From Phaeobacter sp. A36a-5a (GTDB lineage: Bacteria > Pseudomonadota > Alphaproteobacteria > Rhodobacterales > Rhodobacteraceae), in the NCBI RefSeq assembly GCF_037911135.1, contig NZ_JBBLYU010000001.1:1426001-1490000 (forward strand): a DNA stretch of 64,000 nucleotides, read 5' to 3'. Positions within the stretch are counted from its first letter, which is position 1. Each line of letters starts with the position of its first letter. Under the pieces are notes generated by a model that was given only the letters and a program-made list of their open reading frames with translations, did no database searches and was not told where the DNA came from. Shown piece by piece: positions 56,559 through 64,000 of this stretch. A program made the translations under genes and the position numbers.

Positions 56559-58037
56559 ATGGTGGCCACGCCGACCCCCTATTCGCTGTCCGGACCGGGT
56601 CCGGGGATGATGGTTGCGACCGTCTCCTCTGGCGTCCTGCATGGCGTGACCTACCCAAAGGTTGGCGGCCAGACCGTCCAGCTGGGCGAACTCCTCGGCG
56701 CGCTCAGCCACGCGCTTGATCTTACAGAAGGCCAGCCAGAGGGTCATTGCGTAAGATGCTGCTGGATCGGCATGCAGGTCGCCGATTACCTCGATCTGTC
56801 GCAGGAGGATCGCGCTGATCTCTACTTTACCCTGCTTCTGAAGGATCTTGGCTGTAGCTCTAACGCCGCCCGCATCTGCGCGCTCTACCGCACGGATGAT
56901 CTGACCTTCAAACGCAATTTCAAATTCGTAGACGGAACCACCCGGCAGAAGCTCGAATTTGTCCTGCGCCATACCGGCCAGGGCGACAGCCGGTTGAAGC
57001 GGTTGAAAACAGTGACCGGCGTGATTGGCCGCAGCGGCAGTCTGGCGACTGAGCTGATCCAGACCCGCTGCGATCGCGGCGCGGAGATCGCCCGGCTGAT
57101 GCGGTTCTCCGAACAGGTCGCAGAAGGGATCGCAGGGCTGGACGAGCATTGGAACGGCGGCGGCCATCCGGCCGCCATCAGCGGCGACGAGATTCCGCTG
57201 TTCTCGCGCATTGCGCTGATGGCTCAGGTCACCGATGTGTTCACGCTGCAGATGGGCTCAAAAGCCGCCGCTACCGAGCTGGAGGAGCGTGCCGGAAGCT
57301 GGTTCGATCCCGATCTCGTTCCGGTGTTTACCCGGGTGATCCGATCCCCCGGTTTCTATGACGCATTGACCAGCAGTCGACTGGAAGCGAGCGTGTTCTC
57401 GGATCGCTCCGCCCGGGCGACCCTCACGGTTGATGAAACCTATCTCGATGAAATTTCCTACGCTTTTTCAAAGGTTATCGACGCAAAAAGCCCCTTTACC
57501 TACGGCCATTCCGAACGGGTCGCCCATTACACGGACATGATCTGTGAACAGTTGGGCCATGATCTGGTGCATCGTCGCTGGATGGTGCGGGCCGGACTTC
57601 TGCATGATCTGGGAAAGCTGGGGGTATCCAATGCGATCCTCGACAAACCGGGCAAGCTTACGGAGGAAGAGTTCGCCTGCATGAAGCTGCATCCCGTGCT
57701 GGGACACGACGTTCTGCGGCGGATTTCAGTCTTTGAAGACGTGGCGGAGGTGGCAGCGGCCCATCATGAACGGCTCGATGGGAAAGGCTACCCGTATGGG
57801 CTTGCAGCCGCCGATCTCACCACTGACATGCGCGTGCTGACGGTTGCTGACATCTTTGACGCGCTGACCGCGGACCGGCCCTATCGCTCAGCACTGCCGC
57901 TGGAAAAGGCCTTTGAGATAATGGATGATATGCAGGGAACGGCCATAGATCCGGCGATATATCACGCCCTGAAGGATGCCATAGCCGCCAGCCCTTGGCC
58001 TGCCCGCGAAGAGCGGCCATTCTCACCAAAACTCTAG
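56559..58037 (+). CDS. Tandem HD-GYP domain protein, probable c-di-GMP phosphodiesterase
   Basis: 492 residues from ATG at 56559, with AAGGA about 9 nt upstream; an ATG three codons earlier is also possible. The N-terminal half is a decayed HD-GYP domain, where HD is KD (LLLKDLGCS) and GYP is GHP (EHWNGGGHPAA). The C-terminal half (about 310-480) has the full set: HSERVAHYTD, LLHDLGKLGVSN and HHERLDGKGYPYG. It should hydrolyse c-di-GMP or a related dinucleotide. No sensor or membrane domain is seen, so the first half may be the regulatory part. Confidence 0.88.
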   Translation: MVATPTPYSLSGPGPGMMVATVSSGVLHGVTYPKVGGQTVQLGELLGALSHALDLTEGQPEGHCVRCCWIGMQVADYLDLSQEDRADLYFTLLLKDLGCSSNAARICALYRTDDLTFKRNFKFVDGTTRQKLEFVLRHTGQGDSRLKRLKTVTGVIGRSGSLATELIQTRCDRGAEIARLMRFSEQVAEGIAGLDEHWNGGGHPAAISGDEIPLFSRIALMAQVTDVFTLQMGSKAAATELEERAGSWFDPDLVPVFTRVIRSPGFYDALTSSRLEASVFSDRSARATLTVDETYLDEISYAFSKVIDAKSPFTYGHSERVAHYTDMICEQLGHDLVHRRWMVRAGLLHDLGKLGVSNAILDKPGKLTEEEFACMKLHPVLGHDVLRRISVFEDVAEVAAAHHERLDGKGYPYGLAAADLTTDMRVLTVADIFDALTADRPYRSALPLEKAFEIMDDMQGTAIDPAIYHALKDAIAASPWPAREERPFSPKL

Positions 58038-58101: not shown

Positions 58102-58135
58102 TCAAAAAAGCAGAGAGGCAGCAATCGCGCTCTCT
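58102..58135 (-). terminator. Native terminator of the disrupted tRNA-Leu gene
   Basis: Perfect 8-bp stem GCAGAGAG / CTCTCTGC with a 12-nt loop, followed on the minus strand by six T. It lies 8 nt beyond the encoded CCA of the tRNA remnant, which shows that this side is the original chromosome. Confidence 0.85.
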
Positions 58136-58143
58136 GCTTTTCA

Positions 58144-58200
58144 TGGTACCCAAGGCCGGACTCGAACCGGCACGCCCGCAAAGGCGGGGGATTTTGAATT
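58144..58200 (-). pseudogene. tRNA-Leu(CAA) 3' half: attachment-site scar of an integrated element
   Basis: On the minus strand the sequence runs from the anticodon loop TTCAAAA (anticodon CAA) through the 3' anticodon stem, a long variable arm (CCCCGCCTTTGCGGG), the T arm CCGG-TTCGAGT-CCGG region and acceptor CTTGGGT to A and an encoded CCA. The 5' half is missing: upstream of the loop neither the matching anticodon stem nor a D arm nor the acceptor 5' strand occurs. The break lies at the anticodon, a classic tyrosine-integrase crossover point. A rebuilt full tRNA is expected at the far end of the element. Confidence 0.85.
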
Positions 58201-58203
58201 CTC

Positions 58204-58540
58204 ACGAAACTATTATTTTTTAACGCATTGGGAGAGATGACTCCCACAGAAATCGTATGAGAAACAGGGTGGTGTGGGAGTCGAAATTGCACTGCGCACG
58301 CGCTGTCCGACCCTCCTTCAAGAGGGTTATCTTCAGAGCGGCTTACCTGCCCCAACACTTCTCCTACGCGAGACAGAGATCCTGCGTCAGGCTGTCGCCA
58401 TTGCCTTCCGGTCGGATCATACGTTTCAGACCGCGACGTTCCAAGAACTGCGATCTTGGACTAAAGTTACGTACGGTCTAACACATCCAGAGCGGCGCTG
58501 GACGTGTTTGATGCTGCCGCCTTCCTCACCAGTCCAGCTT
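58204..58540. other. Left end of the integrated element, non-coding
   Basis: 337 nt between the tRNA scar and the first island gene. It is more AT-rich than the chromosome to the left (a run near 58211-58222). It holds the inverted repeats at 58239-58282. A rightward open frame from 58274 has no coding character and is not called. Confidence 0.5.
58239..58282. repeat. Inverted repeat GACTCCCAC ... GTGGGAGTC at the element end
   Basis: Perfect 9-bp arms at 58239-58247 and 58274-58282. A further GGGAG lies just left of the first arm and can also pair with it. The place, 40-80 nt inside the crossover site, is where arm-type integrase or excisionase sites are expected. Confidence 0.45.
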
Positions 58541-58978
58541 TCATACCCGAGACATGACCACCCGCTCAGCTGCCAGACGAGCCTCGATCACCTGCAACAT
58601 GTGCTGCACCCGACGAAGGCGGTCGCACCATCGCTGAATGCGGTCACCCCTCTCCGTAAGGACGCGCATGGCAACGACTTCTCCTACATCGCCCTCTTCC
58701 GGGTCAATCGAACCGCAAAAGATGTTGCGATGGCCCACTGTCTCGCTTTCGGTTTCACGCTCCAGCAGCGCAATGATTGGGGTCAGCGCCGAGGCGGCGT
58801 GGCGAAGATCAATGTCCCCGCCCACACTTGCGGCCCAACGAGCCAAGCGAAGCCGATCGTGTGCGCTTGCTGCAAGGTCCGCGGAGGTTATCCGTTCCCC
58901 AGCTGTTTTGAGCTCAAAGAGGGCTTTCGCGCAAAGCCTCTCGAGGGGCATTTCCAGATAGTGTCTATGCATGACCAT
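58541..58978 (-). CDS. Hypothetical island protein
   Basis: 145 residues, with GGAG 6 nt before the ATG at 58978. A helical, charged protein without signal or membrane segments. It contains RVLTERGDRIQRWCDRLRRVQHMLQV, broken here as RVLTERGDRIQ then RWCDRLRRVQHML, which looks like a coiled-coil stretch. No family is recognised. It is the element's last leftward gene, 68 nt after another unknown gene, and the two may form one transcript. Confidence 0.65.
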   Translation of the reverse strand: MVMHRHYLEMPLERLCAKALFELKTAGERITSADLAASAHDRLRLARWAASVGGDIDLRHAASALTPIIALLERETESETVGHRNIFCGSIDPEEGDVGEVVAMRVLTERGDRIQRWCDRLRRVQHMLQVIEARLAAERVVMSRV

Positions 58979-59046
58979 TTTCTCCGGTCTTCGCGCAGCA
59001 CCATGCTACGCTTCAAGCTCCCCGGCACGGATCGCCGGGGATTAGG

Positions 59047-59430
59047 TCATGCGAGCTTTGTCAGCATTTTGCTCATATCGATTGGTGCCCGATCGGGGCC
59101 AATTCTCTGCAGGAGACTTTCGAGCTTGCCGGCCATTTGATCGATGGCCGCCAGATCATGATCGTTCAAACGCTCAAGCTCACGCTCATCTGCCCGTGCC
59201 AGGCTCAACAATTCTTGGAAGCGCTTGAACTCAGCCCGCACAGGACGCGTCAGCCTTTGCGCCTCCGCAATATCACAAAACAGCTGAAGGCAATTTTGAC
59301 GGGCGCGCGGTCCGCCCGCTGCCGCGACCGCGCCAAGCAGCGAATGCCCATTCTCATGGACGAACCTCTTTATTGCAGCGATAGGGTCCTCTTCCCCGCT
59401 GTAATCAGGGGTGTTGATCATTGGTAACAT
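59047..59430 (-). CDS. Hypothetical island protein
   Basis: 127 residues, with AAGGAG 8 nt before the ATG at 59430. The sequence is acidic to neutral and helical, with no signal or membrane segment. Recognisable stretches are FVHENGHSLLGAVAAAGGPR and ARADERELERLNDHDLAAID. No known domain is recognised. It precedes the 145-residue gene on the same strand. Confidence 0.68.
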   Translation of the reverse strand: MLPMINTPDYSGEEDPIAAIKRFVHENGHSLLGAVAAAGGPRARQNCLQLFCDIAEAQRLTRPVRAEFKRFQELLSLARADERELERLNDHDLAAIDQMAGKLESLLQRIGPDRAPIDMSKMLTKLA

Positions 59431-59589
59431 GTGATGCTCCTTGTCGCGCTGTCGTTCGTGACAGCAGCTTCAAGCACCCGGGACGTCTCCTTTCATGATC
59501 GGGTGTTCTGTCTCTGCCCGGCGTTCCGGTAGCAGCGGAGGTGTTCCTCGCCGGTCAGAGTGCCTTCCTTCATTGAAGCGCCATATCAT

Positions 59590-59629
59590 CTTTGGGCCGC
59601 GCTCTCGTCAGCAAGAGCGCGGCCCAAAG
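59590..59629. repeat. 16-bp perfect inverted repeat, 8-nt loop
   Basis: Arms CTTTGGGCCGCGCTCT / AGAGCGCGGCCCAAAG. Neither strand has a following T-run, so a standard terminator is unlikely. It could be a protein-binding or recombination structure, or a bidirectional barrier. Confidence 0.75.
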
Positions 59630-59722
59630 GGGATGTGGCCAAATCCTTACAGCTTATTATGCGTTATTTATCAGCTGGGTAGGTGCAAAATTGAACCTGA
59701 TCGTCTCTCGCAACGGTAGTTG

Positions 59723-59824
59723 ACGGAAGTTAAAGAAGCCCACGGAAAATGTTTAGAAAGGGGCTGTTTCATCCCGTGCGGATGATGTTGCCCCTTTCTA
59801 AACACGCCACGGAAATAACGGAAA
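59723..59824 (+). repeat. Direct repeats ACGGAA(A/G), four copies
   Basis: Copies at 59723-59729 (ACGGAAG), 59742-59748, 59809-59815 and 59818-59824 (ACGGAAA). They flank the nested hairpin at 59751-59803. The same heptamer recurs near the HTH gene at 63623 and at 63980. Candidate arm-type binding sites for the element's recombinases or HTH protein. Confidence 0.45.
59751..59803. repeat. Nested hairpin with 14-bp outer arms
   Basis: Outer arms GTTTAGAAAGGGGC / GCCCCTTTCTAAAC are perfect; inside them CATCC / GGATG forms a second stem (59770-59784). It lies 54 nt after the stop of the shorter recombinase, followed on the minus strand by ATTTTCC. It may be a terminator for the recombinase genes or a recombination site. 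Confidence 0.7.
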
Positions 59825-59857
59825 ACACGGCATTGGACGGCAATCGGCGGTACTGCG

Positions 59858-61183
59858 TCACAGGATCAATTCCGCTGATACCTTGCGGCGTTTTTCGATG
59901 AAATCATCGAAATCACAGGCAGCTTTGAGCCCTTCAGAGTGGTCATAGTGCCGTCGCGTGATCGCCTCGTCCACATGACGAAGCAGGGTTTTTCCGGCGT
60001 AGGCCCCGCCGATGAGGTTTTCCGAGGCTTCCGTGGCGACGTTGTCACGCAGCCGGTGGATCGGGATGCGCACGCCGAACTCGCGCTCTGTGAGATCTCC
60101 GGTCAACCGACCAAGATGGGCCGGTGTGATAGCGCCGAGCTTTCCATGGACCGACGGGAAGAGGTGAAGTCCGTCGTCGAAGAGAGGGCGGAAATCTGTG
60201 CGATAGGCGTGCAGGGCCTCCGCGAGACCTAAGTTTTCAAAGATGACATCATAGCCTTCCTGCGCCTTGCGTGCCTCCGGATACTTCAATGCTTCCCCAG
60301 GCAGATCGATGTGAATGTGCGTGCCATCGATCAACCTTAGGCTCCGGTCGAATTCGAGCCAGGTCAGCGCACGCGCTCGCTCCGGCAGCGCGGCACCGAC
60401 CGCGAAGATGAGACCGTTTCGGAAGATCTTAGCGGCTTCCAGGCCGCGCACGGGGCGCTCGTTAGCCTCTGCCATCAGCCGAAAACCGAAGCCGTAGAGT
60501 GAGCTCGCGCCAACAAGCTGGCTGCCGGTTTTTGTGGAGGTGCCCTCCATCCTTGACCGTTCCCGCCAGTCCGCGACAACAAAATCACAGGCTTTGGATC
60601 GAAAACGCCCTCGTGTCGCCACCCCAAGACCAGCCATGATCCTCTGAAGGTAATTTGCCGCCGTTCCCGTTGTTGTGGGCTCGCCATCTGCGTCCGGCCA
60701 AACGAGATGACGGCCGTAGGCGTGGAGCGAGGTGGCCGTTGGAAGAGTGGTCTGCCGCCGAGACACGCAGTATGCAGCCCAGCGGCCGAGCGCAGCCAAA
60801 ACAGCTTTCGTGTAATCGGCACTCCAGATTGTCCGGCCGAGAACAGCCTGTCCCTTCCTCGAGATGGCAATCTGCTCAAGCAGCGGAGTTCGCCACTCGA
60901 CCGGTAGTGATCCGGCCAAGCGCTCCGCGGTCTGCCAAGGGCACGTATTCTGGGCCTTTGGCGAGACCCGTGCGTCCCTCAGGACGCGTGCGAAATGGGC
61001 GGTTCTTTCTGCGCCCCATGTCTTGGCTGCTACCATTTGCAGGTAAGCGAACTCGGTAAAGGCCGGGGCGCCGACCTCATCGACACGTGCGGCCAGATGA
61101 CAAGACAATGCTTCACGCGTCGGAACCTCGTCCAGGGGCGATGCCGCGCGCAACCTGCGCAGGAGAGTAAGGTGATCGTTCAT
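59858..61183 (-). CDS. Tyrosine recombinase/integrase, shorter member of a pair
   Basis: 441 residues. The C-terminal catalytic part has H376-RL-R379 (IPIHRLRDN), H403 and the nucleophile Y413 (RRHYDHS). The first catalytic arginine is not clear: in the aligned segment AALPERARALTW the usual Arg position holds Leu266, with R269 the nearest substitute. The N-terminal 230 residues would be the arm- and core-binding part. It lies 40 nt downstream of a larger recombinase on the same strand, so both are probably made together. Confidence 0.82.
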   Translation of the reverse strand: MNDHLTLLRRLRAASPLDEVPTREALSCHLAARVDEVGAPAFTEFAYLQMVAAKTWGAERTAHFARVLRDARVSPKAQNTCPWQTAERLAGSLPVEWRTPLLEQIAISRKGQAVLGRTIWSADYTKAVLAALGRWAAYCVSRRQTTLPTATSLHAYGRHLVWPDADGEPTTTGTAANYLQRIMAGLGVATRGRFRSKACDFVVADWRERSRMEGTSTKTGSQLVGASSLYGFGFRLMAEANERPVRGLEAAKIFRNGLIFAVGAALPERARALTWLEFDRSLRLIDGTHIHIDLPGEALKYPEARKAQEGYDVIFENLGLAEALHAYRTDFRPLFDDGLHLFPSVHGKLGAITPAHLGRLTGDLTEREFGVRIPIHRLRDNVATEASENLIGGAYAGKTLLRHVDEAITRRHYDHSEGLKAACDFDDFIEKRRKVSAELIL

Positions 61184-61223
61184 CAGTCATTTCCGGGATT
61201 ACAAGGTTTCGCCGGACGGCCGC

Positions 61224-63320
61224 TCACGCGGCCGTCTTCGTCTTGGTTTCGAGGAAAGTCTGCCAGCCATCCATAACCAGCGTGTCATCCAGCTCTGCAT
61301 AGTACTCCACGGTCGTCTGCAGGCTCTTGTGACCAAGCAGCCGCTGAACGCGCGGCAGGTTATCCATGCTTTCTTTGAGCCAGATCCAGCCGACGAGGTG
61401 CCGGTAAAGGTGCGGATTGATCCGCACGCCGACCTCTTGATGGAGCAGCCGTACGACGCGTTTCAGAAGCCCACGATACGGAGAATTCAATGTGAACTGA
61501 CGGCCTTTTTGACCTGGAAACAGGTACGGGTTGTCGTCGTCGCCTGGCTGCAGCAGTAGCGGACGGATCTTGTCGATATAGTTCCGCATCAACCGACTGG
61601 CGCGTTCGCCCAAACGAACGACGTAATCCGCATCGCCCTTTTTCCGCCCCTTCACTTTGGGCGCGGGTATCGAAATAACGGCTTTGCCATCTTGAAACGC
61701 TATCCAATCGAGCCGCGCTTCGATGACATTCGAGCTTCGCGGCGCCCGCGTGAGCAGGATGTCATGGGCCAGCACGGCAGCGATGTCGCGGGCCAATTCG
61801 AGGTTGATTGCGCCAACGCGATCCGGAAGTACACCGGTCTTCTTTCTTTCGGCTTTTCGCCGCCGATCGATCTCGGCGTTAATCCGTTTCATCACACTAC
61901 CGGACAAGTCTATCGTCGACTGGATCCGTGACTCTGTAAATTTCCGCAGTTTCGCCTTGTTCTGTGGTGCAATACCTCGGCGCCCAGTTTCATAAAACCG
62001 GATCAAACTTTTGATGTCATCAACTTCCGGATCTGAAACGGCCGCGTAACCGATAGCGATCTTCTTCATCGTCTTGAGCACCGAGACGAGATAGCCAGTA
62101 TCCTTTCGCCCGCCATTTGCTTCGGACAAAGCTTTGGCCGCCTCAGTCAGGTATTCATAGTCGACCAGCTCGCGTAGGCTGGTCACGATAATGTCGTGCG
62201 AGCCAGCCAGCGCCTTGGCCAATGAAATTACATAGCCGCGGCGGGTTTTTAAGGTCGTCGACGACCAGCGAGCATCCTCCGTCAGGAAGCCATACTCTCG
62301 CATCTTCGCCTCTCTGCGCTCGACCCGCTCTTCCTTGCCAGCTTTGGCACAATGCTTTGATTTTGACGCAACGCTCTTGCGCAAGCGGGCCTTTTTCTCG
62401 CAAACCGGCTTGGCTTCCTCCCGATCCAATTCAGCCAGGAAGGCCTCATAGGTCGAACCGTCACGCGATGCGTTCCCGGACGCCCATGGTGCGAGGCAGT
62501 TGTCGTACTCGTTTAAGAGATCCTTCAGTTCCCCTGTGGCCACGCCGAACTTGTCGCGGCGATCAGAAAAAGGCGACGCTGCGGCTACGAAACCGAAATG
62601 AGCCGTCGAGGGGGCAGTCTGCATATGACGCAGTAGCGTGACTACGTTCCCGACATGCTTCCGACACTTTGCCTCGGTTACGACCCCCATCTCGAGTCGG
62701 TAAGCGTAATAGCCTGCCAGTGTTTCACTGGTGATTTGGTCAGGCATGATGCCCTGATTAAACAAATAGACGAAAAATGGACCTGCTTTCAGCCTGCAGT
62801 CTGTCGGAATATCGGAGTCCTTCACGGCTGCGTAGGCATCAGCCCAGATGCCCCCAATATCTGCGACACCACGATGACGATCCCGTCGACCATGGCGATC
62901 GATAGCCGCAAGTATGTCGCACTTGTATGTCGAGCGGCTGTTCGGTGAGAGGCCGAGACTTGCTGCACTGTGCTGTTCAAAAAAGTCGATCACATCATGT
63001 CTGCAGACGCGCTTGTTTCCGTACCAATTTGCCTCCGCCATAATCCGGCGGACCCGGCTCGCCCGTGTCTTCTCTCCGCAGCTGTTTAGCTTCTCGGTCA
63101 GCTCCCCCCATGTCAGTTGCTTCGAGCCCGTCTCAGCAGTCAGCAGGTCACGACCGATTGCCGCTGAAAGTGCAGCCAGCGTACTGTGCCGCGGCTTGAG
63201 TCCCTCGATCGACAAGATATCTGTGATCGCCTTGGCATTGAGCCCGGCACGCAAGGACAGAGCACGCTTGGATTCACCAGTCTCAGCTAAATGCGCACGG
63301 ATTTCATCTCGAAATGACAT
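61224..63320 (-). CDS. Large tyrosine recombinase with N-terminal HTH
   Basis: 698 residues, much larger than typical integrases (350-450). Residues 1-60 look like an XRE-type helix-turn-helix (ESKRALSLRAGLNAKAITDI). A long middle region follows, with a Lys/Arg-rich stretch around 310-350. The C-terminal catalytic domain is complete: Arg in APRSSNVIEARLDW, Lys in KVKGRKKGD, H637-LY-R640, H664 in LLGHKS and Y673 in TTVEYY. The HTH might give self-regulation or site choice. Confidence 0.85.
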   Translation of the reverse strand: MSFRDEIRAHLAETGESKRALSLRAGLNAKAITDILSIEGLKPRHSTLAALSAAIGRDLLTAETGSKQLTWGELTEKLNSCGEKTRASRVRRIMAEANWYGNKRVCRHDVIDFFEQHSAASLGLSPNSRSTYKCDILAAIDRHGRRDRHRGVADIGGIWADAYAAVKDSDIPTDCRLKAGPFFVYLFNQGIMPDQITSETLAGYYAYRLEMGVVTEAKCRKHVGNVVTLLRHMQTAPSTAHFGFVAAASPFSDRRDKFGVATGELKDLLNEYDNCLAPWASGNASRDGSTYEAFLAELDREEAKPVCEKKARLRKSVASKSKHCAKAGKEERVERREAKMREYGFLTEDARWSSTTLKTRRGYVISLAKALAGSHDIIVTSLRELVDYEYLTEAAKALSEANGGRKDTGYLVSVLKTMKKIAIGYAAVSDPEVDDIKSLIRFYETGRRGIAPQNKAKLRKFTESRIQSTIDLSGSVMKRINAEIDRRRKAERKKTGVLPDRVGAINLELARDIAAVLAHDILLTRAPRSSNVIEARLDWIAFQDGKAVISIPAPKVKGRKKGDADYVVRLGERASRLMRNYIDKIRPLLLQPGDDDNPYLFPGQKGRQFTLNSPYRGLLKRVVRLLHQEVGVRINPHLYRHLVGWIWLKESMDNLPRVQRLLGHKSLQTTVEYYAELDDTLVMDGWQTFLETKTKTAA

Positions 63321-63348
63321 GGACTTTTACTCCTGCATAAAGTGGCCG

Positions 63349-63582
63349 TCATTCGTCATCGAGCTCGAGATCCGGCCTTCCGCCTCCCGAAGGCCGGGAT
63401 CGATGCTCGAAGAGAAGGACATCTTCTTCGGTGGCGAACCAGCGACGTCCCAGCTTCCGGGCCGGCAGCTTCACCCGCCCCTTCTCCACTGGGCAACCTT
63501 TGCGGATCCAATCAGTGATGCAACGCGGCGTGCACCTGAATCTCACCGCAAGTTCTTCTGTCGTATATATTTTTCTTGTCAT
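63349..63582 (-). CDS. Excisionase-like helix-turn-helix protein
   Basis: 77 residues from ATG at 63582, with AGGAG 10 nt upstream. IYTTEELAVRFRCTPRCITD followed by WIRKG and LGRRWFATEEDVLLFE is the HTH_17 (MerR/excisionase) pattern. It ends 28 nt before the large recombinase and leads that transcript. It may act as recombination directionality factor or as repressor of the operon. Confidence 0.82.
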   Translation of the reverse strand: MTRKIYTTEELAVRFRCTPRCITDWIRKGCPVEKGRVKLPARKLGRRWFATEEDVLLFEHRSRPSGGGRPDLELDDE

Positions 63583-63609
63583 TTCCTGTTTCTCCTCTTC
63601 CGGCAAAAG

Positions 63610-63638
63610 CGGAAATAGGGAAACGGAAACGGATTCCC
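63610..63638. promoter_or_regulatory. GGAAA-type repeats in front of the HTH gene
   Basis: Successive units CGGAAAT, AGGGAAA, CGGAAA and CGGATT at 6-7 bp steps. The outer GGGAA / TTCCC (63618-63638) also form an inverted repeat. They lie 28-56 nt upstream of the HTH start and share the heptamer ACGGAAA with 59723-59824. A candidate operator for the HTH protein. Confidence 0.45.
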
Positions 63639-63771
63639 AAACGCCGGTTGGAGAATCTTCAGATCCTGTCGATAGTTGCGTCAGGCGGGGAAACCCCGCT
63701 GGAACCAAGCAACTCCAGCCTTTCAGAAAAGGCGCCCGACTTTTGTTCGATAGAGGAGCTCAAACTTGCTT

Positions 63772-64000
63772 TCATGAACCTTCCGCAGATTCACGCAATG
63801 CCTCTCCAAGGCTCCGTAGCATACTGAGCCTCTCATGCGCGGAGGACGGTCGTTGCGGCTTCACATCGTAGACATCTCGGCCTGGCTCCATCAGGACAGC
63901 GCAGCCAAGACGCTGTAGGAGCAGGGCCGCTTTGCCCGCAATGCTTTTCCGACGGTCTCGATCGTCGTTTGTTCCGGAAACGGAAATGAAAGCCAGTCGA
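63772..64000 (-). CDS. Hypothetical island protein (5' end outside window)
   Basis: C-terminal 75 residues of a leftward gene that enters from the right edge; stop TGA at 63772-63774. Readable stretches are AFISVSGTNDDRDRRKSIAG, KAALLLQRLGCAVLMEPG and LSMLRSLGEALRESAEGS. Continuous coding character and the same direction as the recombinase genes support it. No family is recognised from this part. Confidence 0.6.
   Translation of the reverse strand, partial: RLAFISVSGTNDDRDRRKSIAGKAALLLQRLGCAVLMEPGRDVYDVKPQRPSSAHERLSMLRSLGEALRESAEGS

Follow-up and report, generated by a model that had tools for sequence, protein, structure and literature searches.

A genomic island in a tRNA-Leu(CAA) gene of Phaeobacter sp. 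A36a-5a and its apparently undescribed two-recombinase module with a palindromic site

The stretch of DNA analyzed here (the window: 64,000 nt of Phaeobacter sp. A36a-5a, G000:C1:1426001-1490000) contains the left end of an integrative genomic island of 26,289 bp, measured from anticodon loop to anticodon loop, which very probably entered a tRNA-Leu(CAA) gene by site-specific recombination; coordinates outside the window continue its count (genome position minus 1426000). As an element, the island is of an ordinary kind. The part that is apparently undescribed lies inside the window and is a module of a small helix-turn-helix (HTH) protein, two tyrosine recombinases (TR698 and TR441, named for their lengths) and one matching palindromic site, a variant of recombinase-plus-site systems. 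Positions of all features are collected in Table 1.

At the left end of the island, only the 3' half of a tRNA-Leu(CAA), from the anticodon stem-loop through CCA, is found together with a terminator, and ARAGORN detected no whole tRNA-Leu in the window. The half matches the intact tRNA-Leu(CAA) located 26.3 kb to its right and in the same orientation (E 1e-14 within this genome), and the match starts at the anticodon stem-loop, placing the start of the island at about 58190-58199. This agrees with the first-pass annotation of the window, which had described a half tRNA cut at its anticodon and predicted that the element runs past position 64000 to a complete tRNA-Leu(CAA) at its far end; the repeat of the half that it proposed to look for to the right of the window is present within that tRNA. 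A chance match or a small RNA was considered for the half copy and rejected, a weak Rfam match to SpF41 (E 0.07) being taken as a tRNA-like artifact. The intact tDNA and the displaced fragment share their orientation, the fragment is on the 3' side, and a tyrosine integrase lies inside the island (the 372-aa enzyme discussed below; TR698 also scores above the PF00589 cut-off). As described in the Islander paper (PMC4383910), tRNA-targeted islands have the same intact tRNA, displaced 3' fragment, internal integrase, and anticodon-centered attachment, with no essential difference from the present one.

Comparison with sister strains, also suggested in the first-pass annotation, revealed an empty site in four of six congeners (G003, G004, G005, and G006), where an HD-GYP gene and a gene that we take to be YqaA-like bracket a single intact tRNA-Leu(CAA) at 92-292 bp from the HD-GYP gene. 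In the window, the HD-GYP gene forms the left flank and ends at 58037; the YqaA-like gene follows on the far side of the island. The terminator next to the half copy resembles that of G004, and the left flank therefore looks native. Of the remaining congeners, G002 has ~3 kb between the HD-GYP gene and the tRNA, and no HD-GYP match was found in G001; neither TR698 nor the module site was matched in any of the six. The G+C content is 55.8% in the island versus 60.9% and 61.7% in the left and right flanks, respectively.

The enzyme that fits this insertion is a third tyrosine recombinase, of 372 aa, beside the intact tRNA at the far end and outside the window, and not one of the two within it that the first-pass annotation had listed. 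Its PF00589 match reaches 24.9 bits (cut-off 27.1), and its relative in L105 (Pseudosulfitobacter koreensis, 71% identity) is above the cut-off at 30.4 bits. This relative and another in G076 (45%) lie beside tRNA-Leu(CAA), whereas one in G074 (54%) is 5 kb from such a gene; when the opposite end of the L105 island was sought, a single tRNA-Leu(CAA) copy was found in that genome. TR698 and TR441 do not look like the integrase of the island, and it is most improbable that they inserted it into tRNA-Leu: both are near the left end, but their relatives are found next to different integrases in islands at different tRNAs, and the enzymes that adjoin tRNA-Leu(CAA) are the 372-aa integrase and two relatives of it. 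Integrases 47-52% identical to the 372-aa enzyme are also present in three phage records named for Microcystis and Pseudanabaena (PP395635.1, ON968455.1, and PP395636.1). Each end of the island carries two copies of an arm-type repeat, GTGGGAGTC, and no further copy occurs in the window, L003, or L004, the last two of which continue to its right. The counts alone are modest (two in the window, where 0.33 would be expected and 5 of 100 shuffles give as many; two in L004, where 0.13 would be expected and 1 of 200 shuffles gives as many), and the argument therefore rests on their placement at both ends. L105 has the right-hand pair with the same 13-bp spacing.

The position of the crossover can be approached from the displaced half itself. 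The element in G076, whose displaced half is on a different contig from the intact tRNA, has a half that begins at the same base as here, AGAATTCAAAATCC, which favors a crossover in the anticodon loop; anticodon-centered attachment is a common class, with 2083 such islands listed in PMC4383910. A crossover in the T arm, with the working tRNA keeping its own variable arm, is an alternative that we consider unlikely but worth weighing, because the variable arm reads GCCTTTGCGGGC in the half copy versus GCTGGTGACAGC in the intact tRNA, and G004, which has a similar terminator, carries GCTGGTGACAGC, a point that speaks against the anticodon loop. G002 and G004 both pair GCTGGTGACAGC with CAGAGAG-type terminators, the intact tRNA now has GCTGGTGACAGC, and the half copy with GCCTTTGCGGGC next to such a terminator looks recombinant. 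On the other hand, the duplicated half starts at one same anticodon-stem base in two elements whose integrases are 45% identical, the arms vary within the genus, and gene conversion between the halves would look alike. The mismatch may reflect either replacement of the tRNA arm by the island, a T-arm crossover, or a later conversion of the halves. The tRNA-Leu(CAA) copies of L004 and L007-L012, all from one genus, fall into three or more variable-arm forms whose downstream sequences differ, a pattern that earlier insertions exchanging the 3' half could have left.

The layout of the two ends can be read directly in the sequence, from which we infer the acting enzyme and the strand exchange. The 372-aa integrase, with its small HTH partner and the GTGGGAGTC arm sites, would have recombined the host gene with an attP that bears the 3' half of a tRNA, most likely by crossover in the anticodon stem-loop, and integration would have restored a full tRNA gene on the right while leaving the host 3' half and its terminator on the left.

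To the right of the half tRNA, five genes were recognized (145, 127, 441, 698, and 119 aa), all reading leftwards. The first-pass annotation had extended this direction to all genes on that side, which holds up to the end of the window but not for the cargo, which starts 1336 bases further on and reads rightwards. The two tyrosine recombinases and the HTH protein that it had named are borne out, TR698 by PF00589 (Phage_integrase, E 1.3e-14), TR441 by fold and catalytic residues, and the HTH_17 protein by a match just below the cut-off. Among Protein Data Bank chains, TR698 matches XerD and XerA at E 1e-6. TR441 is matched by neither Pfam nor NCBIfam at E 0.001; its AlphaFold model (22 aligned sequences) has a mean pLDDT of 84.7, and its best Foldseek matches are Cre structures (E 1.7e-5, TM-score 0.52 by query and 0.69 by target). 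The catalytic residues R271, K300, H376, R379, and Y413 of TR441 are kept in all 28 alignable copies, with the second histidine in 20 of 28, and R528, H637, R640, H664, and Y674 of TR698 in all 26; these counts include the copy described here and leave out gap rows (1 of 29 for TR441 and 2 of 28 for TR698), L107 having been dropped for TR698 because its match covers <300 residues. Taken together, the model and the alignments indicate that both proteins have a catalytic tyrosine recombinase fold.

An alignment scan of 84,980 species genomes with TR698 returned 33 loci, cut at 10-kb flanks or contig ends, of which 28 are good relatives; the weaker loci L110-L114 (24-30% identity, no match to the 119-aa HTH protein, no site) were set aside. 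All 28 are from Alphaproteobacteria, 27 of them with names that we take to belong to Rhodobacterales, the placement having been looked up for five genera, and one (L102) titled Maritalea mobilis, assigned to Hyphomicrobiales by NCBI. TR441 follows TR698 in 28 of 28 loci (in pieces in L108), and the HTH protein precedes TR698 in 25, the other three starting at or near a contig edge. TR441 was matched in 12 of 394 sampled genomes of the family at E 1e-20, nearly full length in 10 (this genome included) and partially in two. G420 has two nearly full-length copies, on contigs C24 and C11, and two modules may coexist there. Outside chromosomes, TR698 was matched in 12 of 72,556 plasmid records, one of which covers at least 80% of the query: pDSM109990_c of Sulfitobacter dubius (33% identity), where an HTH gene precedes the relative and a second integrase follows it. 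Of 85 pattern matches to TR698 in IMG/VR, none was confirmed, and no TR441 match was found in 50,697 phage records.

The fourth part of the module is a 127-bp palindrome, with outer arms close to GTTGAAAACGGG and CCCGTTTTCAAC, an inner palindrome ATCAyCCGCAyGGGrTG, and TTTCCG-like repeats outside. A profile built on 23 of the 28 sites (alignment A3), the other five being found later with it, matches each of the 28 loci, as well as the window, at exactly one place below E 1, and gives no match in L003, L004, or the five weak relatives. Most sites are close downstream of TR441, those of L101, L102, L104, and L109 are ~0.65 kb off, and that of L100 is 5 kb off; the plasmid relative has the site in the corresponding place (E 1e-10). 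Because the HTH protein, TR698, and TR441 stay together, and the site is present as a single copy in all 28 loci and missing from the five weak relatives, we regard the four, on comparative sequence grounds, as a separate conserved module with one palindromic site in cis and a putative role for the latter in recombination. The dyad is kept in 85.1% of alignment cells, a value reached in 0 of 500 shuffles and falling to 41-56% when partners are slid by 1-3 columns. Changes on both sides of the dyad affect 31 cells (reached in 3 of 500 shuffles) in eight pairs (reached in 126 of 500), these controls leaving the relatedness among copies in place. That the palindrome is an RNA hairpin only, acting as terminator or regulatory element of the recombinase operon, seems improbable to us: it lies close behind TR441 in most loci and has a long stem, followed in the present copy by a short T run, but its loop and center are almost invariant, 18 of 23 copies keep the outer TTTCCG-like repeats on the left side and 19 on the right, its distance from TR441 can reach the values given above, and two genomes retain it with no module nearby.

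What the module does may be approached by analogy with Cre/lox and Xer/dif, in which case it would resolve multimers of the excised, replicating island, a role that we prefer to the alternatives but consider an even call. It fits with one site per island, tied to two recombinases, separable from the tRNA integrase, and not seen as a chromosomal target; the Cre-like fold of TR441, the presence of DUF3987 genes, the separate integrase in many islands, and 21-bp repeat arrays upstream of some modules also support it. Such an array, iteron-like and a possible replication origin, is found here and in L085 and L093. Several observations weigh against this reading. No array of at least three copies was present in the other 24 of 27 stretches (three of which, L089, L091, and L097, had <0.6 kb upstream). 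A loose pattern of the present repeat occurs seven times in L003 versus 3.95 expected, a count reached in 23 of 200 shuffles; as this is not above chance, the array here rests on its tandem spacing. No replication gene was recognized in the island, and no excised circle was seen. TR698 was matched in separate pieces in L106, L108, and L109, as was TR441 in L108, and some modules would therefore be decayed. The site was found in 5 of 145 related genomes, searched with filters able to lose weak matches: it accompanies the module in this genome, G012, and G030, and stands with no module match within 10 kb in G065 (L130:9724-9850) and G078 (L131:9965-10091). In G065, the stretch downstream of the site resembles module islands and includes relatives of the 127- and 145-aa proteins.

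The module could instead be a mobile element in its own right, comparable to GInts, RITs, or Tn554, that sits within the tRNA island and uses the palindrome as its attachment site. The module DNA (59682-63646) is common to L082-L085 at 72-75% identity while most of their surroundings differ, modules are found in islands with different integrases, and TR698 is weakly similar (26%, E 1e-5) to recombinases of two staphylococcal plasmids, one of them annotated as a transposase. Nevertheless, no second copy of the site is present in the flanks of the 28 loci, the window, L003, or L004; the 140 genomes in which the filtered search found no site offered no chromosomal target resembling it; and the further integrase cluster within 10 kb in 12 of the 28 loci indicates that the module is often internal to larger islands. 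We consider such a nested element rather unlikely, although it is the chief competitor of multimer resolution. Multimer resolution, on the other hand, leads to a wider and more tentative proposal, which we judge somewhat more probably wrong than right: that the HTH protein, the XRE-fused recombinase, the Cre-fold recombinase, and the palindrome form a new heteromeric site-specific recombination system maintaining a family of plasmid-like, self-replicating, defense-carrying chromosomal islands in Rhodobacterales. In this scheme, the module would act after the tRNA integrase has excised the island.

Among known systems, Cre/loxP and XerCD/dif share with the module one palindromic site beside the recombinases and, in TR441, a Cre-like fold. 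In contrast to them, the module has two different recombinases and an HTH protein, and compared with the familiar layout of lox and dif, its site is longer, has a distance of 25 bp between the outer arms, and is flanked by TTTCCG repeats. RITs consist of three consecutive tyrosine recombinases, whereas the module has two only. Because GInts and RITs have three recombinases, the module is neither. GInts (ginABCD) are otherwise similar in combining, in one operon next to variable cargo, several tyrosine recombinases with a small helix protein; according to PMC5385486, they have three recombinases and GinD versus two recombinases in the present module and related loci, where, moreover, the module genes here read toward the site and not away from an end, and a separate integrase sets the island ends at the tRNA. 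The strand-biased circularizing integrative elements (SEs; IntA-Tfp-IntB-Srap) also have two catalytic recombinases in their core gene set, but the module lacks a third recombinase-fold protein between the two, which sets it apart in gene order; SE homologs are reported from Gammaproteobacteria only (PMC10214605). No description of a two-recombinase module with such a site was found in the literature, as judged by titles and the beginnings of abstracts, and the combination is apparently undescribed.

The first-pass annotation had expected an undescribed system in cargo outside the window. The cargo does lie there, but an undescribed system as its main content was rejected on the basis of PADLOC matches: the predicted cargo is phage defense of known kinds, a BREX type I operon and a Kiwa-like pair. 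The BREX genes are open frames in one operon (PADLOC E 1.7e-79 to 0) that, to judge from the matches, is complete, with BrxA, BrxB, BrxC, PglX, PglZ, and BrxL in the established type I order and a WYL regulator in front; no difference from BREX type I was seen. The adjacent KwaA and KwaB (DUF4868) match PADLOC at E 6e-55 and 8e-110 but are divergent from known Kiwa, with 26.1 of 26.3 bits for Pfam KwaB and 49 of 100 and 22 of 200 bits for NCBIfam, whose cut-offs are not reached. Between them and the BREX genes, a 303-aa protein has no Pfam, PADLOC, or NCBIfam match and a relative in one other of 295 genomes of the family. The interval from KwaB to the integrase (L004:8000-8900) appears by eye to hold IS3-like transposase debris, and a 208-aa open reading frame (ORF) within it (L004:8251-8877) was rejected as coding.

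Table 1. Features of the island, left to right, in window coordinates
Feature	Position	Strand	Remarks
Intrinsic terminator, native to original tRNA-Leu gene	58102..58140	-	By eye; similar one beside intact tRNA in congener G004 (L009)
attL, displaced 3' half of tRNA-Leu(CAA)	58144..58199	-	56 bp, 89% match to intact tRNA
Part of island inside window	58190..64000	.	Remaining 20.5 kb (BREX type I, Kiwa-like pair, integrase, intact tRNA) past window end
Arm-type repeat GTGGGAGTC, left end	58239..58247	-	
Arm-type repeat GTGGGAGTC, left end	58274..58282	+	
145-aa protein, unknown function	58541..58978	-	Relatives recur in module-bearing islands
127-aa protein, unknown function	59047..59430	-	Relatives in L104 and L130
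Conserved palindromic site, 127 bp	59703..59829	-	Dyad center CCGCAyGG; outer arms TGTTTAGAAAGGGGC/GCCCCTTTCTAAACA
TR441, 441-aa tyrosine recombinase, Cre-like fold	59858..61183	-	AlphaFold, Foldseek, catalytic residues
TR698, 698-aa tyrosine recombinase	61224..63320	-	PF00589; XRE-like N-terminal HTH (by eye)
Small HTH_17 protein, 119 aa	63349..63708	-	PF12728 E 1.2e-5, 25.9 of 27 bits (below curated cut-off)
21-bp iteron-like repeat array, 5 copies	64299-64404 (L003:299-404)		Core TTGCGTCA
WYL regulator	65336-66211		
BrxA	66208-66828		
BrxB	66825-67427		
BrxC	67432-70953		
PglX	70946-74449		
PglZ	74449-76944		
BrxL	76954-79014		
303-aa protein, no family	79192-80103 (L004:5192-6103)		Between BREX and Kiwa genes
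KwaA	80559-81113		PADLOC
KwaB (DUF4868)	81117-81986		PADLOC
70-aa HTH_17-like protein	83052-83264		Likely excisionase
372-aa tyrosine integrase	83221-84339		Beside intact tRNA; start overlapped by HTH_17-like protein
Arm repeats GTGGGAGTC, right end	84341-84349 and 84354-84362		
Intact tRNA-Leu(CAA)	84433-84518 (G000:C1:1510433-1510518)	-	

The related loci suggest that modules live in varied surroundings. The integrase cluster found within the 10-kb flanks of 12 loci (clusters being single-linkage BLAST groups of ORFs, not trees) has members of mostly 693-822 aa, those of L085 and L104 being shorter; a scan of one member found DUF6538 and, below the threshold, Phage_integrase. Four of these 12 are at tRNA-Asn(GTT) (L089, L097, L098, and L104), and L105 has the tRNA-Leu(CAA) integrase. 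DUF3987 genes were found near modules by Pfam in three tested cases and by clustering in 11 loci. Besides the module, L083 shares BREX, and L085 two short stretches, with the present island. The defense survey covered 18 chosen proteins of 484 called ORFs plus BLAST with the genes of this island, and because it had no random control, enrichment for defense cannot be read from it; PADLOC matches at E < 1e-8 were obtained for 8 of the 18 proteins and not for the other 10. Defense genes near the module include BREX in L083, type III restriction-modification (R-M) with a UvrD-like helicase in L098, type I R-M in L095, a ZorD/DpdE-like helicase in L082, a UvrD/GajB-like helicase in L085, Cas3e in L093, and MzaC in L101. 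Upstream of the module, L098 and L102 have in common a cassette of large proteins (a type III methyltransferase and the UvrD-like helicase in L098; L102 by clustering only).

The island illustrates how an alphaproteobacterium can acquire a complete BREX system together with a Kiwa-like pair in a single step, and it has defined ends and an empty site available for comparison. The module is a small and testable unit recurring in islands of Rhodobacterales, several of them with defense genes, and may serve as a marker for such islands, whereas its site offers a handle on whether these islands replicate and resolve like plasmids. If the proposed maintenance system is real, defense islands such as the one carrying BREX and Kiwa would spend part of their life as replicating circles.

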